From Chitinophaga cymbidii (GTDB taxonomy: Bacteria; Bacteroidota; Bacteroidia; Chitinophagales; Chitinophagaceae): 64,000 nt of DNA. Of this stretch, positions 9,116-48,126 are shown piece after piece. Every line of letters begins with the position of its first letter. Position 1 is the stretch's first letter. The stretch spans positions 62,001-126,000 of the forward strand of contig NZ_BKAU01000009.1 in the NCBI RefSeq assembly GCF_007992715.1. Direction: 5' to 3'. The notes below the pieces were generated by a model. It worked only from the letters and a program-made list of their open reading frames with translations, was not told the DNA's origin and did no database searches. The position numbers and the translations under genes are program-made.

Positions 9116-11092
9116 TCATTTAAAGATGACCGTTCCGATCTCCTGCGTCAGCGCAACTTCCAGCTGCTTGAGGTGCTGATGCATTTCCACACATTTTAAT
9201 TGTGCGTCGAGGTCTTCCGCTTTTTCCATTTCCTGCTGGTTTTCCACGATCAGTTTTTTGATCTTGCGCAGCATGAGGTAGTTGGTGGTGGAGATGGTGT
9301 CTTTGAGGTAGGCGTTATCGCCGTAAACGGTGCTGATCTCGAACCGTTCCTTCCAGTTGGCGCTCAGGTCCGCTTCCTTGTCTTCCAGTATCTGCGCTAC
9401 GTTGCGGGCGATGTCGTCATCCTGGTGGTAGAGGAACCATTTTTTGTCCAGCAGCTGGCCTTCATCATATTTGACTTTGTATTCGCGCAATATTTTCTTG
9501 ACGATCTCGCTGTCCGCCAGTGATTCGAAGTCGTAGGGGAGGTGGAAGATGTAATCCGCCACGGTGTTGTTCTCTTCTTCGCTGAAAGGCTTGTCGCCAA
9601 AGCGCAGCAGTATTTTCACCAGTTCCCTTTCCTGCTTTTCATCGCGGTTGAAAAGGTTGTCGCCGCTGTCTATAGGGCTGCCGTCCTCGAAATATTCGGG
9701 GTACATTTCCTCCGGGGAAGGGCCTTCTTCGGAGGATTGTTCCTGCTGCTTTTTGTTTTGCTGCTGCTGTTGCTTGATGAGCCGGTCGCGGATGTATTTG
9801 TTCACCAGCGTCACCATGCCCTGCTCGTCTATCTTCAGCAGCTGGCTGCACTGGCGGATATAATCCTGCTGTTTGGTGAAGTCCTCTACTTTATCTATCC
9901 GGGAGATCGTTTCCGCGATCTCGTTCACCAGCTGTGATTTTTTGGTAGGGTCGTTGCCGGCTTCGCGCAGGGACACCTGCAGCTTGAAGAGGATAAAGTC
10001 CTGTTTGTTCTCCGCAATAAAATTCCGGAAAGCTTCCGCGCCGATCTTCCGCACATAGCTGTCCGGGTCCTCCTTATCCGGGATGAGGGCCAGCTTTACG
10101 TTGAGCCCTTCTTCGATGGCCATGTCCAGCCCCCGGAGCGCGGCTTTCACGCCCGCGTTATCGCCATCATAGAGGATGGTGAGGTTGTTCGTATATTTTT
10201 TGATGAGCCGGAGCTGGTCGGTGGTCAGCGACGTGCCGCTGGAAGCCACCACGTTCTCAATGCCCGCCTGGTGCAGGGAGATCACATCGGTATAACCCTC
10301 CACCAGCAAACATTCATCCAGCCGGTCTATCGAATGCCTTGCAAAGTAGGTGCCGTACAGCACTTTACTTTTGACGTAGATGTCGTTTTCCGGGGAGTTG
10401 ATGTATTTGGGCGCACGGTCTGATTTCACGAGGATGCGCGCGCCGAAGCCGAGCACTTTGCCGCTCTGGTTGTGGATGGGGAAGATCACGCGCCCGCGGT
10501 AGTTGTCCTGCGGCAGCTCATTGCGGATGGCGATGAGGCCCGTCTTCAACAGGTATTCCTGGTTGTATCCCTTAGCCTGCGCGGCTTTGACGAATGCGTC
10601 CCTTTTGTCGAGCGAATAGCCGAGCTGGAACTTGCGGACGATCTCTTCGGAGAAACCTCTTTCCTCGAAGTAGCTCAGGCCCACGTTCTGCCCTTCCTCC
10701 GTATCGAACATCGTTTGCACGAAATAGTCGCGCGCGAAGTTGTTGATGATGAAAAGGCTGTCCGCCAGCTGCTGCTGGGCTTTTACTTCGGGGCTGACCT
10801 CTCTTTCCTCTATTTCCACGCCATATTTCTGGGCGAGCCATCGCAGGGCTTCCACATAGGAGTATTTTTCATGCTCCATGAGGAAGTTGATGGTATTGCC
10901 GCTTTTACCGCAACCGAAACATTTGTAGATCTCCTTGCTGCCGGAAACGGTGAAGGAGGGGGATTTCTCGTTGTGGAACGGGCAAAGGCCGAGGTAGTTG
11001 GCGCCGCGTTTTTTCAGTTTCACGAAGGAGCCGACGATCTCGACGATATCTATCCGGTTGAGGATCTGCTGTATGGTATTTTGAGAGATCAA
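9116..11092 (-). CDS. dnaG: DNA primase DnaG
   Basis: This 658-residue replication primase synthesises RNA primers at the fork and contacts DnaB through its C-terminus. The N-terminal zinc module is CPFHNEKSPSF with KCFGCG (C-x2-H ... C-x2-C). The catalytic core follows (DFILFKLQVSL region), with a Toprim domain marked by LLVEGYTDVI and ILYDGDNAG. A Gln-rich linker at about 505-515 leads into the acidic C-terminal helicase-binding region. The open frame runs on to 11239, but the homologous start is SQNTIQQIL, so I use TTG 11092. A minus-strand TAGATTTG box lies about 30 bases upstream of it. The added N-terminal 49 residues of the longer frame are Arg/Phe-rich and look non-coding. Confidence 0.95.
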   Translation of the reverse strand: MISQNTIQQILNRIDIVEIVGSFVKLKKRGANYLGLCPFHNEKSPSFTVSGSKEIYKCFGCGKSGNTINFLMEHEKYSYVEALRWLAQKYGVEIEEREVSPEVKAQQQLADSLFIINNFARDYFVQTMFDTEEGQNVGLSYFEERGFSEEIVRKFQLGYSLDKRDAFVKAAQAKGYNQEYLLKTGLIAIRNELPQDNYRGRVIFPIHNQSGKVLGFGARILVKSDRAPKYINSPENDIYVKSKVLYGTYFARHSIDRLDECLLVEGYTDVISLHQAGIENVVASSGTSLTTDQLRLIKKYTNNLTILYDGDNAGVKAALRGLDMAIEEGLNVKLALIPDKEDPDSYVRKIGAEAFRNFIAENKQDFILFKLQVSLREAGNDPTKKSQLVNEIAETISRIDKVEDFTKQQDYIRQCSQLLKIDEQGMVTLVNKYIRDRLIKQQQQQNKKQQEQSSEEGPSPEEMYPEYFEDGSPIDSGDNLFNRDEKQERELVKILLRFGDKPFSEEENNTVADYIFHLPYDFESLADSEIVKKILREYKVKYDEGQLLDKKWFLYHQDDDIARNVAQILEDKEADLSANWKERFEISTVYGDNAYLKDTISTTNYLMLRKIKKLIVENQQEMEKAEDLDAQLKCVEMHQHLKQLEVALTQEIGTVIFK

Positions 11093-11257: not shown

Positions 11258-12322
11258 TTACTGCAATATTTCCTCCAGCTTTTCGCCCAGAGCGTTGCCA
11301 CGGAGCGCAACGCCGATGATCTTGCCCTGGGGATCTATCAGGTAGTTCATCGGGATGCTTCGCACCTCGTAGGCCCTTGCGGCGGCATTGTCCCATCCCT
11401 TCAGATCGGAGAGGTGCGTCCACGTGAGGTCGTCCATATGGATAGCATTGATCCATTTTTGTTTGTCTGATTCTTTGTCCAGCGAAACGCCGATCACGGT
11501 GAAGTTCCTGTCTTTATATTTTTGCCAGGCTTTCACCACATTGGGATTTTCGCCCCGGCAGGGAACGCACCAGGATGCCCAGAAGTCCAGCAGCACGTAC
11601 TTCCCACGGAAGTCTGCCAGGCGTACCGGCTTGCCAAGCGTATCGTTCATGGTAAAATCGATGGCGGGCATGCCTACGCCGAGCTTTTTCGCGGTTTCCA
11701 GCAATCCGGCGATCTTTTTGCCGTTTTTGGATGCACGCCATTCGCTGTCCATCTTTTCATAAACCGGCGCCACTTTTTCGCGGTTTTCACCAATGAAGCT
11801 GGCCGTTGCCAGGTCTTCCATCAACCAGAACGACACCGGGGAGCTGGGATAGGATTTCAAAAAGGCGAGGCTTACGCTGTCTTTTTTCATTTTTACGCTT
11901 TTGCTTTTTTCCGAAGTGCTGAGTGGTTCCCAGCCGACATTTTTCCACTGGTCCAGCAAAAGATTGTATTCGCTTTGCGCTTTTCCGCCCTCTATTTCAG
12001 AGCTGCCCACGCGCTTGCCCTTAACGGAAGTGGTGCCGCCGGTAAGAAAGAAGTACTGGGCTTCGTCCTGCTTTGTGATGTGTTCAATGTACAGCATCGA
12101 TCTTCCGGGCTGTAAAATTTTGCCGGTGAGGGAAAAAGAATGATTCCTCACCCGGGTGGTATCATAGCGAAACCGGGTACCGTCATTATAGCTGAGCATC
12201 ACCATTCCGTTCTCTTTGGCCTCTGTGACAGTGCCTTTTAATTCGAAAGATTCCTGCGCTGTGGCAGCGATGGAAAACGTCAACATTGAAAAAACGCCAA
12301 TCGTTCTGATTTTTGTCATCAT
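11258..12322 (-). CDS. TlpA/AhpC-TSA family thioredoxin-like protein with N-terminal DUF4369
   Basis: This 354-residue exported protein has a signal peptide ending near AATAQ. An N-terminal DUF4369-like beta domain (FELKGTVTEAKENG ... FSLTGKI) is followed by a helical linker and a TlpA-type thioredoxin fold from about residue 225. The redox motif is WCVPC (251-255), preceded by GKYVLLDFWAS and followed by the cis-proline segment RSIPMNYLIDPQGKI. Such proteins reduce periplasmic disulfides. It is the last gene of the sigma-FecR-SusC-SusD locus, 22 bases after the PKD-like lipoprotein gene. That suggests the operon handles a thiol- or metal-containing ligand or peptide, but the substrate is not readable. 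Confidence 0.9.
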   Translation of the reverse strand: MMTKIRTIGVFSMLTFSIAATAQESFELKGTVTEAKENGMVMLSYNDGTRFRYDTTRVRNHSFSLTGKILQPGRSMLYIEHITKQDEAQYFFLTGGTTSVKGKRVGSSEIEGGKAQSEYNLLLDQWKNVGWEPLSTSEKSKSVKMKKDSVSLAFLKSYPSSPVSFWLMEDLATASFIGENREKVAPVYEKMDSEWRASKNGKKIAGLLETAKKLGVGMPAIDFTMNDTLGKPVRLADFRGKYVLLDFWASWCVPCRGENPNVVKAWQKYKDRNFTVIGVSLDKESDKQKWINAIHMDDLTWTHLSDLKGWDNAAARAYEVRSIPMNYLIDPQGKIIGVALRGNALGEKLEEILQ

Positions 12323-12344
12323 TATTCAGTTTTTAATAGTTTGA

Positions 12345-13898
12345 TTAATTAACTGCGCGCCAGTTCATATTCTTCACTTTGATCAGGTTGTCCCAGCGGC
12401 CATGCTCCACCTGCGTTATTTCCACCACGTTGGGATTGCTGCCTACCGCGAAGCGGCGCAGGGTGCCTTTTGTGGTGGCGTTATAGGTAGCGATGTAGAG
12501 TGAATTGCTGAGGTAGTCCATTTGTGTATCGAACTTCAGCATCGTGATCGGATCATTGCCGATGGCGGGATATTCGTAGAATTTCTCGTTGCCGGGATTG
12601 TAATCATACGCATACAGTTTGGCGCCAACGGAATAGAACACTACGGTGCGGTTCGATGAAAATGCATAGAAATCCGCTTTGTCGAAATTCACCGCCATGG
12701 GCAGTACGGTATATGCGGCCCGTTTGGGCGGCGTGGAGCCGTATGCGTAGAACTTGTACAGGTAGCAGGTATTGCCGGCGTCCTTCATCACGGCAAAGGA
12801 GTTGCCGTGTGTGGAGCTGCCGTCCGTGTTGCGGGTGTTTTCCGCGTACACCAGCGTTCTGCCGGTGCCCGCCTGGTTCCAGGGAAAGGGATCTCCATCT
12901 TTGTCCGTCAATACATTGGAAGCCGTGCTCAGCCCGATATTGGTGATGTTCAGGAAGCGCTGGTTTTCCGTATCGTACCAGACGATAGCATTCATGTTAT
13001 TGATGGAGTACAGCAGGTATGGCGCGGCTTTCAGCAGCTTCTGGGGATCGGCGGCTATGCGGTTCATGGGATTGGTATAGAAATCGCCCCCGTTCAGCAG
13101 CAGGTAAGAAACAAAGATGCTGCCGTCGTTGCAGAGCATGGCGCGGAGATAATCGGTGCCTGTTGCGCCGGCAGCGGTCTTTACCTGCGGCGCCAGCGCC
13201 ACCGGTATGAGTGTTTTCGTGTCGATGGGATCGGAGGTGTAGACCTGTTTGCCGAAAGTATTATCCTCCGAGCCTTCCATGGACAGGCGGTCCAGGTGGT
13301 AAGAGCCGGATTTGCTGAATACCCAGATCTTTTTATAGGCTTCCCATCCGCTGGTATGGAGGAAGCTCACGGGGTCTTTCAGCACGGGCAGGCCGCTGTT
13401 GGAAAGGATGTTGCGCACCAGCACCGTGTCCGCGATCATGGACAGCATTTCCGCTTCCGCATTGCCCTGCTCGTTTTCTCCTATCAGCAGGATGCCGCGC
13501 GTGTATACGGTGCCTACCACCAGCTCGAATTTTTTCCACCAGGATACGCCGGTTACTTCGTCTACCGTGCGGAACTCCATGTTGTAGGTTTCCGGTGCGA
13601 GCAGTACCGGGTATTCGAGTGTTTCTTCGAATCCAAGGGTGTCCAGAAACTTGTTGCTGCCCCTGATGATCCAGTAGTACTTATAGCGGTCTTTTCCGCT
13701 GCCGGCCTCGGTGGCGGTCACTTCCGGCGAAATGCGGAGCGTATCCACCGCGGTGGTCACCGAGTATTTGTCGGCCACGCCTTTGATGGCCAGCTCATTG
13801 ATATCGTCATAGGAATAGTTTCCCAGATCCTTGCTGCAGGCTGCCGCCAGTGCGCCCAGCACGATGAATATTGCAGTATGAACAGAATATCTTCTCAT
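12345..13898 (-). CDS. PKD-like family lipoprotein of a SusC/SusD locus
   Basis: This 517-residue protein has a lipoprotein signal peptide with lipobox LAAAC (Cys21), so it is anchored in a membrane, probably at the cell surface. Residues of about 45-150 look like an Ig/PKD-type beta domain (TLRISPEVTATEAGSGKDRYKYYWIIRG in pieces). The rest contains repeated short beta segments such as ILLIGENEQGN, WVFSKSGSYHLDRL and TVVFYSVGAKLYAYDYNP, suggesting a beta-propeller-like ligand-binding part. Proteins of this type usually sit downstream of SusD and DUF4843 genes in Bacteroidota, as here. The ligand is unknown. Spacing is 34 bases to the DUF4843 gene and 22 bases to the TlpA gene, so it is operonic. 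Confidence 0.82.
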   Translation of the reverse strand: MRRYSVHTAIFIVLGALAAACSKDLGNYSYDDINELAIKGVADKYSVTTAVDTLRISPEVTATEAGSGKDRYKYYWIIRGSNKFLDTLGFEETLEYPVLLAPETYNMEFRTVDEVTGVSWWKKFELVVGTVYTRGILLIGENEQGNAEAEMLSMIADTVLVRNILSNSGLPVLKDPVSFLHTSGWEAYKKIWVFSKSGSYHLDRLSMEGSEDNTFGKQVYTSDPIDTKTLIPVALAPQVKTAAGATGTDYLRAMLCNDGSIFVSYLLLNGGDFYTNPMNRIAADPQKLLKAAPYLLYSINNMNAIVWYDTENQRFLNITNIGLSTASNVLTDKDGDPFPWNQAGTGRTLVYAENTRNTDGSSTHGNSFAVMKDAGNTCYLYKFYAYGSTPPKRAAYTVLPMAVNFDKADFYAFSSNRTVVFYSVGAKLYAYDYNPGNEKFYEYPAIGNDPITMLKFDTQMDYLSNSLYIATYNATTKGTLRRFAVGSNPNVVEITQVEHGRWDNLIKVKNMNWRAVN

Positions 13899-43223: not shown

Positions 43224-44243
43224 ATGGAGCTGACACTATATCCATTCGCCTTAAAATTCCGTCACACATTTACGATATCGAGAAAAAGCAAGGACGTGCA
43301 GCCTTTACTGGTAGCGGAACTGCGGCAGGACGGCCTGAGCGGGCTGGGAGAAACGGCGGACAACGCCTATTACAACATCACCGTGCCCATGCTGATGCAG
43401 GCGATCAATGCGCACCGCGGCTTCATCGAGGCTTACCGCCTGGATACGCCGGAAGCCTTCTGGGAAGAGATGTACCCGCGGCTGAAAGATAACCTGTTCG
43501 CCCTCTGCGCGCTGGACCTTGCGGCGCATGACCTCTACGCAAAGCGCCTCGGCAAAAAGCTCTACGAGGTCTGGGACCTCGACCCTTCGCATAACCCGAT
43601 GACGGACTACACCATCGGCATAGATACCGTGGAGAACATGGTGAAAAAGCTGCGGGAATTTCCCTGGCCCATCTACAAGATCAAGCTCGGCACGAAAGAT
43701 GATATCGCCATCATCACCGAACTGCGAAAGCATACCAGCGCCGTATTCCGCGTAGACGCGAACTGTGCCTGGGGGGTGGATGAAACGCTCCGCAATGCGG
43801 CCGCTTTCCAATCCCTCGGCGTGGAGTTCATTGAACAGCCGATGCCCGCGGCGGATTGGGAAGGGATGAAAAAAGTATATGAGCAATCCCCGCTGCCGTT
43901 GTTCGCGGATGAAAGCTGCATTGTGGAAAGCGACGTACAGCAATGCCACGGTTACTTCCACGGCATCAATATAAAACTCACCAAATGCGGCGGCATCACG
44001 CCTGCCCGCAGGATGATCCTCGAAGCCAAACGCCTGGGCATGCAGGTCATGACCGGCAGCATGAACGAAAGCACCGTAGGCACTTCCGCCGTAGCGCATT
44101 TGCTCCCTTACCTCGATCATGTGGACATGGACGGCCCGCTCCTCCTGGCGGAGGATATTGCGGACGGTGTTCAGATCAAAGATGGTGTGATCATCTATGC
44201 GGACAGGAATGGTACCGGCGCGGAACTGCACCGCGCTTTCTGA
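43224..44243 (+). CDS. Enolase-superfamily dipeptide epimerase (L-Ala-D/L-Glu type)
   Basis: This 339-residue protein has the muconate-lactonising/enolase superfamily layout: a capping domain (FRHTFTISRKSKD, GLGETADNAYYN) and a barrel. The catalytic Lys-x-Lys is in YKIKLG and the metal ligands in FRVDANCAWG, FIEQPMP and LFADESC. The second base lysine is in INIKLTKCGGI, with MTGSMNESTVG near the end. The pattern fits dipeptide epimerases such as YcjG/YkfB, which convert L-Ala-D-Glu from murein into L-Ala-L-Glu for reuse; other dipeptides are possible. TATATTTA (43212-43219) lies just before the ATG. Confidence 0.87.
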   Translation: MELTLYPFALKFRHTFTISRKSKDVQPLLVAELRQDGLSGLGETADNAYYNITVPMLMQAINAHRGFIEAYRLDTPEAFWEEMYPRLKDNLFALCALDLAAHDLYAKRLGKKLYEVWDLDPSHNPMTDYTIGIDTVENMVKKLREFPWPIYKIKLGTKDDIAIITELRKHTSAVFRVDANCAWGVDETLRNAAAFQSLGVEFIEQPMPAADWEGMKKVYEQSPLPLFADESCIVESDVQQCHGYFHGINIKLTKCGGITPARRMILEAKRLGMQVMTGSMNESTVGTSAVAHLLPYLDHVDMDGPLLLAEDIADGVQIKDGVIIYADRNGTGAELHRAF

Positions 44244-44249
44244 CGCTGC

Positions 44250-44819
44250 TTATTCCATCGGGCCGAACTTCCGGCCCGCGATGGGACGGTCTCCGGCGAG
44301 GCTGTCCGCCGCAATATCCGGCGGCAGCTCATGCTTCATGCCGGAAAACTTGTAGGGCGGCGAAGCGGAATCGTTCTGCACGATCATGTAACCGCTGATG
44401 ATGTTCTCTTCCTTGAAGGAAAAATACACCTTGTTGTTCAGCAGCCACTCATGCGGCAGGCACGGCAGCGTGTAAGGATGGTCGCGGTCCATCCACGGCT
44501 TCATCACAAAGTCATACTTGCCGCGCTCGGCCAGAATGCCTTTGATGTAACAACGGTCATCCCGTTTGGGATGATAATGCTTGTCGTTTTCCAGCCTGCC
44601 GTAAAAGAACATGCCCTGCACACTGTCAATATGCAGGATGTAACGGAGGATGCCGTTGGTGGACCGGAAAGAAACCTTGTAATCTCCGAGGAGCGCAGCG
44701 GTTTTTTGCTGCATGATGCGGGAGTGTTGCTGACTGGATGCCTGCAGGGGTATACTGCACAGATAAAATGCTGCAAGTACAATCACAGTCAGCCGCATGA
44801 TAGAATGGCGGATTATCAT
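44250..44819 (-). CDS. Secreted hypothetical protein
   Basis: This 189-residue protein has a signal peptide (IMRLTVIVLAAFYLCSIPLQASS); the ATG at 44798 (MRLTVIV) is an alternative start. I do not recognise the family. The mature part has alternating beta-like segments (KVSFRSTNGILRYILHIDSV, GMFFYGRLEND, CYIKGILAERG, KYDFVMKPW), suggesting a lipocalin-like or calycin barrel. It ends in a polar tail with several prolines. It lies on the same strand as, and 86 bases downstream of, the small gene at 44906, and faces the epimerase tail to tail. Confidence 0.65.
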   Translation of the reverse strand: MIIRHSIMRLTVIVLAAFYLCSIPLQASSQQHSRIMQQKTAALLGDYKVSFRSTNGILRYILHIDSVQGMFFYGRLENDKHYHPKRDDRCYIKGILAERGKYDFVMKPWMDRDHPYTLPCLPHEWLLNNKVYFSFKEENIISGYMIVQNDSASPPYKFSGMKHELPPDIAADSLAGDRPIAGRKFGPME

Positions 44820-44905: not shown

Positions 44906-45178
44906 TTACCGGGCCTCGTCTTCCGGTATTTCCTTCCAGCTGTCGGCAAAGAAAACGTAGTCGCTTTTCCTGCCGGTGGCTTCAATGAACTTGCCGGCGA
45001 GCGCCGCCAGAGGGTTGTCCATAAAGGGATTGCCCGCCGCGGGGCGGATGAGGAAACTTTCTTCCGCTGTTTGCAGGTATACTCCCAGGCTCTCGCTTTT
45101 TGTGGTGCGCGCGAAAGTCTTCAGCACCAGCTGGCCTTTTACGGTACGTTTGGTTTTCTTCTTTTTATCGCCTGACAT
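44906..45178 (-). CDS. Small conserved protein overlapping the C25-like protease gene
   Basis: This 90-residue cytoplasmic protein has a basic start (MSGDKKKKTKR) and then a compact beta-rich domain: VKGQLVLKTFARTTKSES, VYLQTAEESFLIRP, GNPFMDNPLAALAGKFIEAT, and YVFFADSWKEI. The succession of strands with a central GNPF...L-A-G-K-x-I helix resembles a small OB-like barrel. I cannot name the family. ATG 45178 lies inside the end of the protease gene (14-base overlap, different frame), which implies coupled translation. It may be a partner, inhibitor or substrate adaptor of the protease. A longer start at 45205 would overlap further. Confidence 0.7.
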   Translation of the reverse strand: MSGDKKKKTKRTVKGQLVLKTFARTTKSESLGVYLQTAEESFLIRPAAGNPFMDNPLAALAGKFIEATGRKSDYVFFADSWKEIPEDEAR

Positions 45179-46727
45179 ATTCTCTGTGACCAAGGATGAC
45201 ACCATTCTTTTCTTTTACCACCAGCACTTTGGTTTCTTTAAACCTGCCGGTGAATGATGATTCCGAATATACATGAAATTTTACAGGTGCGGGGAATGAT
45301 TTTGCACTCCTGGTGAGGGGGGATGGAGCGCTGGTGAATGTTTTTTTGTTTGTTTTTCCGTGGAAGGATTTGAGGAGGGATTTCAGCTGGTCAGTCAGTT
45401 GCAGGAGTTCTCCGGTAACCTGAACATCCCCGGCGGCCGTGCGCGTTTTCATTTTTGCGCTCGTTTTTGCTTTTGCGGCTTTTGCCGCTGCGGTGTTTTT
45501 TATCTCCTTCGGCACAGCAATAAACCCTTTCAACGCCAGCCCTTTTGCCATAAGGTTATCCCGCCTGTTTTGCCGCGGATCGATGGAACGGGCCACCGGC
45601 GCGCTGTTCACGATCACCAGCGAGGGATCGCCGAGCAGGTAGAACTGTGCGATGGTCTTTAGCTCATAAGGGTCCAGCGAAGGGCCCGTTTCATCCAGAA
45701 AACGCTGCCTTGCTTCCAGCAGCGCGCGGCCGGTGGAAGCGCCTTTGAGCGTGTTGATAAGAAAGTATTGTGTAAGCAAATCAGCCAGCCCCTGGCCTTT
45801 GGCAGGGCCGTAAGCGATGGTGGAGCTGCCGGTGAAGGCCAGCGCGTGATGCAACAGGTAGCTTTGCGCCATGCTCATCTGCGCTGTTCCCGCAACGGAA
45901 GGATCATAAAGCTGTGCGCCGTAACAGCATTCCGCGGCCACAATGGTGCCCGGACTGATCTTTTCGGCAAGTCCCGCGGATTGCAGTGCTTCAGGGAACT
46001 TTTTGCCTTTCTGCCCGTAGTAGGACGGGTCTTCCAGCGAGCCATGGCAGTTCAGGAAATGTGTTTTTGCTTTCAGCTGCGTTTTCGTCCACTTCGGTCC
46101 CATAGCGGGCGACAGCTGCAACGCGCCGTTGTGACCGAAGATGTTTTGCAGGCTTTCGCGGGTGGACAGGCGCCAGTCGTGCACACTCACCGCGAAGTAT
46201 GACTGGTAATCCTTTACTTTCGCGGGTTTGCTGGATGCCGCGTCTTTCACCAGCGAGCGGAAATACGCCGCATCCCGGCTGCCCGGAATGTCCGGCAGCC
46301 GCCCCACGACGCGCACCGGCGCAATGAACTTACCGGGGTCTGTATGGAAAGGCGCATCACAGGCGTACGGCAGATCGCTGGGGATGATCCGGTCTTCGTC
46401 ATCTTCACTGAAAAGCAGGTTGTTGAGCGGCTGAAAAGGGATCACGTCCTGCGCGCCCGCGATCAGCAGGTAGTCCGGCTCAAAACAGCGGTACAGCGCA
46501 TCGATGGCATTCTTGTTCTGGCGGGCATCGCCGGGATCTTTAACAGCCGCGCCTTTGCAGGCTTTCATCGTTTTAACATCATCTACAAAAACGACCAGCG
46601 TATCAAGGTTGCGTTTTTTATCAGCCTGTTGGAGCGTGTTCAGTGCGGTGAGGAAAGTCTTGTGTTTGCTGCCGTATTTTTTGATCAATGCAGCACGGTT
46701 GGATACGATGAGCTTATCCTTTTTCAT
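45165..46727 (-). CDS. Cytoplasmic peptidase C25 (gingipain/caspase clan)-like protein
   Basis: The 520-residue protein has no signal peptide. Residues 80-375 follow the C25 pattern. A strand and turn PDYLLIAGAQDVIPFQPL leads to acidic DLPYACDAPF and VRVVGRLPDIPG, then the catalytic-type His228 in FLNCHG after a hydrophobic strand. The catalytic-type cysteine is in IVAAECCYGA (Cys267 or Cys268). The typical ending is ELKTIAQFYLLGDPSLVIV. The 39-40 residue His-to-Cys spacing is close to gingipains and caspase-like folds. Residues 395-420 are a Lys/Ala-rich linker and the last 100 residues are a separate basic domain. Known C25 enzymes are secreted; this one appears intracellular. The substrate is unknown. 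Confidence 0.75.
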   Translation of the reverse strand: MKKDKLIVSNRAALIKKYGSKHKTFLTALNTLQQADKKRNLDTLVVFVDDVKTMKACKGAAVKDPGDARQNKNAIDALYRCFEPDYLLIAGAQDVIPFQPLNNLLFSEDDEDRIIPSDLPYACDAPFHTDPGKFIAPVRVVGRLPDIPGSRDAAYFRSLVKDAASSKPAKVKDYQSYFAVSVHDWRLSTRESLQNIFGHNGALQLSPAMGPKWTKTQLKAKTHFLNCHGSLEDPSYYGQKGKKFPEALQSAGLAEKISPGTIVAAECCYGAQLYDPSVAGTAQMSMAQSYLLHHALAFTGSSTIAYGPAKGQGLADLLTQYFLINTLKGASTGRALLEARQRFLDETGPSLDPYELKTIAQFYLLGDPSLVIVNSAPVARSIDPRQNRRDNLMAKGLALKGFIAVPKEIKNTAAAKAAKAKTSAKMKTRTAAGDVQVTGELLQLTDQLKSLLKSFHGKTNKKTFTSAPSPLTRSAKSFPAPVKFHVYSESSFTGRFKETKVLVVKEKNGVILGHREYVRR

Positions 46728-46809: not shown

Positions 46810-48126
46810 ATGAAGATGCAATATCCGCGTTATGTTATGTTGATAGTCTTGTTGGGCTGGGCCGCCGCTTCACAGGCGCAGCTGATTGCCCGTGTTACTG
46901 TTCAGACCGGTGCGTATGCGCGGCAGCGTACGCCCGTCAGCCTCGATCTTTCCCGCCTGCCGAAAGGCCCGTATGAATTGTTTGCGGTAGATGGCGGCCG
47001 GCGCACGAAGGTACCCTGCCAATATGAGCCCGGTATAGTGCCGCGCCTCTGGTGGCAACTGGGGGAGAAGGTGCCGGCGGGCGTTGTGAGGACTTACGAG
47101 CTGCATGCCGTTCCGCAAAAGGGTGGTGCTGCTGATGCGGTGCAACGGAATAATGCTTCCCCTGTACCATCTGCCGCGGCAGTCAGCGACGGACAGAATA
47201 GCCCTTCCCCGATGCCTGCCGCCGTTACACTGAAAGACGAACAAGGCGCCCTCACCATCCGCAACCACGATCATCCTGTACTGCAATACAACTACGCCAC
47301 CGTTTACCCGCCCGCGGGCGTGGACACGGTTTTCCGCCGCAGCGGTTTCATCCATCCCGCCTGGTCCCCCGCAGGCAAGGTGCTGACCGGCATCCACCCG
47401 AAAGACCACTATCATCATTTCGGTATCTGGAACCCCTGGACCGACACCGAGTTCGAAGGAAAGACCGTTGATTTCTGGAACATCGCGAAGAAAACCGGTA
47501 CGGTAAGATTTGTGCATTTCATCAGCCGCACGCAGGGCGCCGTCTGGGGCGGCTTTAAAACCTTGCAGGCGCATGTGGTGCTTGGCGCCACGGAAAAGGA
47601 CGCGTTGGATGAAGTGTGGGATATCCGGGCGTATAACGGCAAAGGGATGCAGGTATGGGACTTTGTGTCCGTATTAAGCTGTGGTACCACGTCCCCCATT
47701 ACGTTGAAGCATTACCGTTATGGCGGCGGCTTCGGGTTCCGGGGGCACCCGGACTGGAACAATAAGAACAGCGCGGTCCTTACGTCCGCCGGTAAAACCC
47801 GCAGGAACGCGGATTCCACTTACATGCGCTGGTTCAAGGTGGCCGGTACTTCCGGGGAAGGGAAAGCGGGCATGCTGGTGCTGGTGGCGCCGGATAACTT
47901 CAACTTTCCCCAGCCTATAAGGGTATGGCCGGAAAAAGACCTGGGTGGACAGGTGTTCATCAATATATCACCCACCAAAGACCGCCCCTGGACGCTCTCT
48001 TACGGTAATGAATATACGCAGAAGTACCGTGTGGTCACGTTTGACGGAGATATCAGCGCGGAAGAAGCGGAGGCGTTGTGGAATGATTATGCGCATCCGC
48101 CGGAGGTAACGGTGTCAGCTGAATGA
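46810..48126 (+). CDS. Secreted PmoA-family (DUF6807) protein
   Basis: This 438-residue protein has a signal peptide (YVMLIVLLGWAAASQAQ). It belongs to the family named PmoA after a mislabel as methane monooxygenase subunit; it is unrelated to that membrane enzyme. Typical segments are VLQYNYATVYPPAGVD, RRSGFIHPAWSPAGKVLT, DHYHHFGIWNPWTDTEF with its His cluster, VDFWN, and the closing TLSYGNEYTQKYR. Members are common beside carbohydrate-acting genes in Bacteroidota; function is unknown, and the His/Asp cluster suggests metal binding. Residues 100-135 are a low-complexity insert (Ala/Ser/Pro rich). Confidence 0.87.
   Translation: MKMQYPRYVMLIVLLGWAAASQAQLIARVTVQTGAYARQRTPVSLDLSRLPKGPYELFAVDGGRRTKVPCQYEPGIVPRLWWQLGEKVPAGVVRTYELHAVPQKGGAADAVQRNNASPVPSAAAVSDGQNSPSPMPAAVTLKDEQGALTIRNHDHPVLQYNYATVYPPAGVDTVFRRSGFIHPAWSPAGKVLTGIHPKDHYHHFGIWNPWTDTEFEGKTVDFWNIAKKTGTVRFVHFISRTQGAVWGGFKTLQAHVVLGATEKDALDEVWDIRAYNGKGMQVWDFVSVLSCGTTSPITLKHYRYGGGFGFRGHPDWNNKNSAVLTSAGKTRRNADSTYMRWFKVAGTSGEGKAGMLVLVAPDNFNFPQPIRVWPEKDLGGQVFINISPTKDRPWTLSYGNEYTQKYRVVTFDGDISAEEAEALWNDYAHPPEVTVSAE

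Follow-up and report, generated by a model that had tools for sequence, protein, structure and literature searches.

The gingipain family of peptidases is familiar from secreted virulence enzymes and from the type IX sortase. What does such a peptidase do where it carries no visible leader and a second, small gene starts inside its last codons? This question is raised by a locus in the window, the whole 64,000-nt stretch of Chitinophaga cymbidii DNA analyzed here, which comes from a genome of 6.63 Mb. The reading that we prefer, to which we give a little less than an even chance, is that the locus encodes a cytosolic gingipain-fold cysteine endopeptidase together with a dedicated OB-fold partner that restrains it. 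The two genes and their overlap are as follows.

45165..46727, minus strand: leaderless Peptidase_C25/gingipain-fold cysteine peptidase, coding sequence of 520 aa (open reading frame, Pfam, AlphaFold2 model, match to RgpB)
44906..45178, minus strand: small, probably OB-fold partner, coding sequence of 90 aa (open reading frame, AlphaFold2 model, gene pairing)
45165..45178, minus strand: 14-nt overlap of the peptidase end and the start of the small gene (reading frame coordinates; possible in 37/76 intact pairs)

A Gingipain-Like Core With an Added C-Terminal Domain

The landmarks FLNCHG (with H228), AECCYGA (with C267 and C268) and YLLGDPSL were all found at the residues given in the original prediction, which had been made from the sequence alone. 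PF01364 (Peptidase_C25) matched the peptidase with 26.9 bits (3.6e-6) at a Pfam cut-off of 23. This curated cut-off was compared for the window peptidase, and the other aligned members were judged by E <= 0.01, at which Peptidase_C25 was matched in 75/75 aligned peptidases, the window's included. An AlphaFold2 model, computed from the 75-row alignment, reached a pLDDT of 91.0 and a pTM of 0.91. It matched RgpB with a Z of 29.8 (rmsd 2.8, 305 aligned, residues 3..382) and Kgp with a Z of 24.7 (residues 2..383; 305-312 aligned across RgpB and Kgp), the next structural matches being separase (Z 14.4), TPR-CHAT (13.8) and PorU (13.8). The caspase/gingipain core, on which the original prediction had staked its reading, is present in this model. 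By sequence, the peptidase profiles, including the 75-row profile, found no PDB chain below E 0.1. The model divides the protein into two parts.

45579..46721, minus strand: gingipain-like catalytic core, residues 3-383 (ranges aligned to RgpB and Kgp)
45168..45578, minus strand: added basic C-terminal domain, residues 384-520 (AlphaFold2 secondary structure, pLDDT, pI)

The C-terminal domain, with a pI of 10.7, bears out the claim of an added basic domain with a Lys/Ala linker. Helices are predicted at residues 385-402, 413-429, and 439-452, and strands at 460-466, 482-493, 496-507, and 510-519. Ten-residue pLDDT means were 49-66 in the linker (about 411-440) and 69-95 in the rest of the domain. 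PDB structural matches, among those listed, barely reached residues 384-520. The last residue of the peptidase is R or K in 70 of the 75 aligned members.

The peptidase had been described as devoid of signal peptide, propeptide and C-terminal secretion domain, and none of the three was found. By a crude hydropathy test no hydrophobic leader was seen in the first 40 residues, where the best 10-residue Kyte-Doolittle mean was 1.56; this mean exceeded 1.8 in 7/75 aligned peptidases (maximum 2.17), and PorU of the same genome reached 3.23. Since the gingipain-like core of the model begins already at residue 3, no room is left for a propeptide. NCBIfam includes models of type IX sorting domains, and no such domain was recognized in the peptidase, which had no NCBIfam match at E <= 1. 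We considered type IX secretion nevertheless, the C-terminal strands with their final Arg/Lys being slightly similar to a T9SS sorting domain. This route was rejected because of the missing NCBIfam match and because no T9SS is known in some of the phyla that carry the peptidase family; in a scan of one genome per species the family was also present in Burkholderiales, Nitrospira, and others.

The same genome holds one copy of PorU, the type IX C25 sortase (G000:C1:1164083-1165156), which has the C25 domain in common with the window peptidase. However, PorU is a frame of 1146 aa with a hydrophobic N-terminal stretch, while the window peptidase is leaderless by hydropathy, and PorU shows the motifs TGHG and ATCD where the window peptidase has NCHG and AECC (aligned by eye). 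Comparison of the peptidase family with the C25 domain of this PorU by hhalign gave a weak match (probability 2.8, E 0.016).

An Invariant His and Cys With Further Conserved Cysteines Nearby

Four codons or codon pairs mark the active site and its surroundings.

46044..46046, minus strand: His228, presumed catalytic, in NCHG (invariant, 75/75)
45924..45929, minus strand: Cys267, presumed nucleophile, and Cys268 (each invariant, 75/75)
46047..46049, minus strand: Cys227, adjoining the presumed catalytic His (Cys in 74/75)
46359..46361, minus strand: Cys123, five residues past Asp118 (Cys in 71/75)

Asp118 is likewise invariant in the 75 aligned members. In any other column of the alignment a cysteine occurs in at most 31 of 75 members, and in the PorU encoded by the same genome the residues opposite C227, C268, and C123 are Gly, Asp, and Phe (aligned by eye). 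Conserved thiols beside the active site of an intracellular enzyme suggest that C123, C227, and C268 may place the peptidase under thiol/redox or metal control. It could also be asked whether the protein is a non-catalytic pseudo-protease that serves as a scaffold; with His228 and Cys267 invariant in 75/75 members, this is extremely improbable.

The Small Gene Follows the Peptidase Across Phyla

The claim that a 90-residue gene starts inside the last codons of the peptidase with an overlap of 14 bases was confirmed by the coordinates. We scanned one genome per species; with a six-row alignment as query 117 relatives were found, of which the best 80 were kept, and with the single peptidase sequence as query the same scan found no relatives. 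Among these best 80 of 117 relatives, whose named loci belong to several phyla, the small gene follows the peptidase in 78, and a second copy of the small gene was found in none of the 78 paired loci. The spacing in 76 intact pairs was an overlap of 14 nt in 37, of 11 nt in nine, and of 4 nt in two; the remaining 28 pairs do not overlap and have gaps of 0-255 nt. In 43 whole genomes, chosen for holding the peptidase, the peptidase was present in one copy in 43/43 and the partner in one copy in 41. Whether the small gene would be conserved beside the peptidase in other genomes had been named beforehand as decisive for a shared system, and it was conserved in 78/80 loci and 41/43 genomes. The proposal of a dedicated partner is well supported by this conserved adjacency.

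The exceptions are L051 and L062, the two loci among the best 80 of 117 relatives that lack the small gene. Both come from metagenome assemblies, and they account for the two of the 43 genomes in which no partner was found anywhere; their peptidases nevertheless keep intact catalytic motifs.

Smaller samples gave the same picture. Out of 395 sampled genomes of the phylum, peptidase and small gene were found in the same two, one of them the window's own. In 195 genomes of the family the peptidase query matched six, of which five, the window's own included, are true relatives. The small gene was also found behind the peptidase in L002-L005 and L008, four of which (L003, L004, L005, and L008) coincide with L036, L043, L050, and L084. 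L006 (G158) is a weak match to a different protein (1.5e-4) and was left out of the pair counts; the frame at L006:1303-3198, from a genome of the same family, is 631 aa long, with an N-terminal part that by eye is MBL-like and a C-terminal part that is caspase/C25-like. In Rhizobiales the pair is also found on plasmids, and the small gene followed the peptidase in 7/7 plasmid loci fetched from 10 matching records. On these plasmid records public annotation does not go beyond "C25 family cysteine peptidase" or "hypothetical protein" for the genes of the pair, and some of the gene tables, which are incomplete by their own description, do not list the small gene.

The 75-row peptidase alignment omits L019 (partial), L029 and L034 (frameshifts), the duplicates L036, L043, L050, and L084, and the near duplicates L016, L027, L041, and L048. 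The 78-row partner alignment omits L051 and L062 (no gene), L036, L043, L050, L084, L048, and L088 (partial). Neither alignment includes the plasmid loci. In L029 (Chitinophaga sedimenti) the peptidase match is split over two frames, with DnaK and upstream-gene matches fragmented as well, and in L034 (Chitinophaga sp. E66) the peptidase frame is interrupted, as are the matches to the epimerase, DnaK, and others. Both broken frames more probably reflect assembly errors than genuine loss of the gene. L076, labeled as a Klebsiella pneumoniae MAG, has a peptidase that groups with those of environmental bacteria and is probably a mislabeled metagenome bin. A second, degraded-looking small gene (L098:10769-10984, E 1.1e-7) was observed about 1 kb behind an intact pair on a Bradyrhizobium plasmid.

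The Partner Is Probably an OB Fold

The AlphaFold2 model of the partner (pLDDT 73.9, pTM 0.58) has five strands, and its structural matches were mostly OB folds, namely PriB, SSB, RPA, Stn1/Ten1, and OB domains of polymerase delta. With a best Z of 6.6 overall and a best Foldseek E of 0.013 these scores are middling, and the model makes an OB fold likely but not certain. Potempin A, a protease inhibitor, matched at a Z of 5.9, level with many non-inhibitor OB folds; the Z of PriB, SSB, and RPA was equal or slightly higher. The window's partner matched no Pfam, NCBIfam, or PADLOC family at E <= 1, and its profiles found nothing in the PDB by sequence below E 0.1. DUF5818 (PF19135) was weakly matched by 10/78 partners at E <= 0.5 (best 1.9e-4), but not by that of the window. 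Two residues stand out in the 78-row alignment.

45098..45100, minus strand: Lys27 of the partner, in the [ST]KSE motif, candidate reactive-site residue (K in 77/78, R in 1/78)
45044..45046, minus strand: Arg45 of the partner, ahead of the GGNPF stretch (R in 76/78)

Residues 21-30 of the partner have a low mean pLDDT of 55. Lying in a flexible part of the partner, the conserved Lys/Arg would suit a residue that plugs a gingipain-like site of basic specificity, and we infer an inhibitory role for the partner.

The main rival to this inhibitor is a partner that acts as activator, folding partner or substrate adaptor and senses a ligand, delivers substrates or opens the active site. Binding of nucleic acid or ligands is the commoner function of OB folds, the structural matches are mostly to SSB, PriB, RPA, Stn1/Ten1, and polymerase-delta OB domains, and the near-invariance of Lys27 and Arg45 would suit such a role; the strict 1:1 pairing would be expected of an obligate subunit no less than of an inhibitor. 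On the other hand, the pI of the partners varies from 4.7 to 10.6 with a median of 6.7, which is not the steady positive charge of a nucleic-acid binder, and two genomes retain the peptidase without the partner. We consider an activator or adaptor plausible, though less probable than an inhibitor.

Vertical Inheritance in Chitinophaga and No Defense-System Match

Over nine close Chitinophaga pairs, dN/dS was 0.04-0.13 for the peptidase and 0-0.22 for the small gene; both genes are thus under purifying selection in this genus. Because it is under purifying selection and follows the peptidase in nearly all homologous loci, 44906-45178 is a real gene and not a chance reading frame. The window's epimerase gene (43224-44243) has a homologue downstream of the pair in 32/32 Chitinophaga loci, within 2.5 kb in 27 and at 7.8-9.2 kb in five. 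The divergent gene at 46810-48126 has a homologue upstream of the pair in 30/32, and one of the two loci without it is a contig that starts inside the peptidase. Low dN/dS and conserved genomic position show that the pair in Chitinophaga is an old, vertically inherited unit. Behind the small gene, at a distance of 86 nt and on the same minus strand, lies a gene (44250-44819) for a 189-aa protein whose N-terminus is hydrophobic and signal-peptide-like; a homologue occurs in 11/32 Chitinophaga loci, which sets this gene apart from the conserved pair.

Neither protein matched a PADLOC family at E <= 1. No relatives were found among 50,697 phage records, nor in IMG/VR viral contigs by pattern scan. 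A mobile defense island was therefore rejected, given also the conserved position in Chitinophaga, and the original suggestion of a defense effector was not supported by these results and the low dN/dS. The more specific idea of an abortive-infection or toxin–antitoxin type system, in which the peptidase would kill the cell upon loss of the partner or detection of a phage, draws on the resemblance to TPR-CHAT/Csx29 (Z 10-14) and SAVED-CHAT (Z 10.2), on the overlapping two-gene layout and on caspase-superfamily peptidases being common in bacterial conflict systems, according to parts of PMC7159879. The missing PADLOC match, the lack of relatives in phage records and viral contigs, the epimerase neighbor in every Chitinophaga locus and the low dN/dS speak against it and make it very improbable.

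Paired mutual information was calculated for 72 pairs, and 12 of the top 25 inter-protein pairs lay in the C-terminal domain of the peptidase. A co-evolution signal in this domain was rejected, as within-clade shuffling of the partners gave the same share of top pairs there (means of 0.46 and 0.50 versus 0.48 observed). The largest value was higher than any reached in the 60 shuffles, with P384-R11 as the top pair; nothing is built on it here. The trees of peptidase and partner correlate with an r of 0.82 (72 pairs), or 0.71 for the 42 non-Chitinophaga pairs, which shows co-inheritance, not binding.

Hydrolase Genes Beside the Pair Outside Chitinophaga

Just upstream of the peptidase, and on its strand, lies the end of a hydrolase gene in at least 7 of 48 non-Chitinophaga loci, a number that is a lower bound, with codon-use neighbor calling having given no call at many loci. 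The genes encode an S8 subtilase in L043, L044, L067, and L089 (assigned by Pfam for two of the four proteins, which the other two match by tblastn), an Amidase_2 in L057, a GDSL hydrolase in L083, and an SLT protein in L056. Six of the seven genes have their start on the contig, and none of these six shows a hydrophobic leader; the start of the SLT gene lies beyond the end of its contig. In tblastn over the 80 loci the S8 queries matched only those four upstream places, and the hydrolase queries had no match in the 32 Chitinophaga loci. On rhizobial plasmids the neighbors of the pair include a caspase+GDSL protein, GH46 chitosanase, YkuD L,D-transpeptidase, phage-type lysozyme, trypsin, S8, and tyrosinase.

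Such surroundings favor a reading in which the pair belongs to a leaderless lytic arsenal, the peptidase leaving the cell via lysis, vesicles or an injection device to attack competitors and the small protein providing immunity or holding the enzyme. Leaderless-looking hydrolase genes just upstream and the hydrolase-rich plasmid neighborhoods argue for it. Against it stand the 32 Chitinophaga loci without a hydrolase match, a single copy per genome in fixed position, a peptidase dN/dS unlike that of an arms race, and the failure to find a secretion marker. We regard a lytic arsenal as improbable overall; it stays alive for the non-Chitinophaga and rhizobial lineages because of their hydrolase neighbors.

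Several neighborhoods deserve a record of their own. At L094:10947-15665 and L095:2605-7325, on rhizobial plasmids, a leaderless caspase+GDSL protein, a GH46 chitosanase, an L,D-transpeptidase and a DUF3616 protein lie beside the C25 pair. The helical N-termini of this transpeptidase and chitosanase look alike by eye, with no BLAST link. Ferritin-like, radical SAM and weakly LodA-like (below cut-off) proteins lie beside the pair at L093:986-7481, L097:2151-6854, and L098:11118-17086, on plasmids of Rhizobium and Bradyrhizobium, two of these three clusters containing an annotated halogenase. In L078, a groundwater Bacteroidetes, the pair is flanked with gaps of 60 and 47 nt by two proteins without Pfam match (9293-9928 and 11780-12949), which are possible extra components of the pair.

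Comparison With Known Protease Systems

The core fold and the Pfam C25 domain are common to the window peptidase and to the gingipains RgpB and Kgp of Porphyromonas gingivalis. Unlike these, the window peptidase has no visible signal peptide or propeptide, and it has an added C-terminal domain outside the gingipain matches, a dedicated partner gene and extra conserved cysteines beside the active site. Gingipains cleave Arg/Lys-specifically, and from the modeled fold we infer that the window peptidase may prefer Arg/Lys as well.

In staphopain/staphostatin and SpeB/Spi the gene order is protease, then inhibitor, which parallels the order of peptidase and small gene in the window. Passages of PMC3462683 describe staphopain/staphostatin, SpeB/Spi and Bacteroides C10 systems as a cysteine protease co-transcribed with a small inhibitor gene, and staphostatins and Spi as thought to guard the cytoplasm against their proteases; staphostatins are called lipocalin-like in a title of its reference list. 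These systems comprise papain-like proteases with inhibitors of other folds, whereas the window pair combines a gingipain fold with a probable OB fold. For the KLIKK proteases of Tannerella forsythia, parts of PMC7296668 report an adjacent gene for a small potempin inhibitor. In contrast to the window's small gene, which follows the peptidase, potempin genes precede the protease gene and encode lipoproteins, the KLIKK proteases are type IX cargo, and KLIKK/potempin pairs differ among strains (sections of PMC7296668).

Csx29/TPR-CHAT (Craspase), SAVED-CHAT, and separase belong to clan CD and share the core of the window peptidase (Z about 8-14). All of them act inside cells, under the control of CRISPR complexes, nucleotide sensors, and securin. 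Judging from PDB titles, their regulator is not a small OB-fold protein, unlike that of the window pair. The caspase-superfamily conflict systems of multicellular prokaryotes, as described in parts of PMC7159879, also join a peptidase with co-encoded partner genes, but these are ATPase/GTPase, trypsin-co-occurring, or alpha/beta-hydrolase genes; C25 and gingipain are not named in its main text. No paper describing the pair was found in the portion of the open-access literature searched. As far as this literature goes, the fold family is known, and the leaderless branch with its partner, C-terminal domain, and cysteine cluster is an undescribed form of it.

A Possible Mechanism

Returning to the reading that we prefer, a peptidase held in check by its OB-fold partner, the peptidase would reach its fold directly in the cytosol, and unchecked gingipain-like activity there would put the cell at risk. 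Translated from the neighboring and often overlapping gene, the partner would bind the peptidase at once and stoichiometrically. Its [ST]-K-S-E loop, in which Lys27 is only ever replaced by Arg, would occupy the active-site cleft in the way of a substrate whose P1 residue is basic. The enzyme might then be set free by a signal, for which the candidates are oxidation of C123/C227/C267/C268, loss of a metal from these cysteines, disappearance of the partner, or lysis of the cell. By analogy, holding of the peptidase in the manner of staphostatin/Spi and potempins would be the simplest account. A strictly required inhibitor is doubtful, though, because L051 and L062 keep the peptidase without the partner, unless a replacement protein or an incomplete metagenome assembly explains this exception.

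Going further, the pair might represent a widespread intracellular, zymogen-free C25 peptidase that is gated by cysteine oxidation or metal and metered by an obligate OB-fold subunit. We would not bet on this fuller version, for which we see roughly one chance in three at best. If it is true, the pair would be a bacterial analogue of separase–securin or of a caspase with its inhibitor, devoted to the regulated proteolysis of the cell's own proteins. As the pair is small and single-copy, the question of inhibitor, activator, or adaptor is tractable with two purified proteins. A leaderless branch that is found in several phyla with the same small protein would mean that the gingipain fold, besides its secreted roles, serves controlled intracellular proteolysis.
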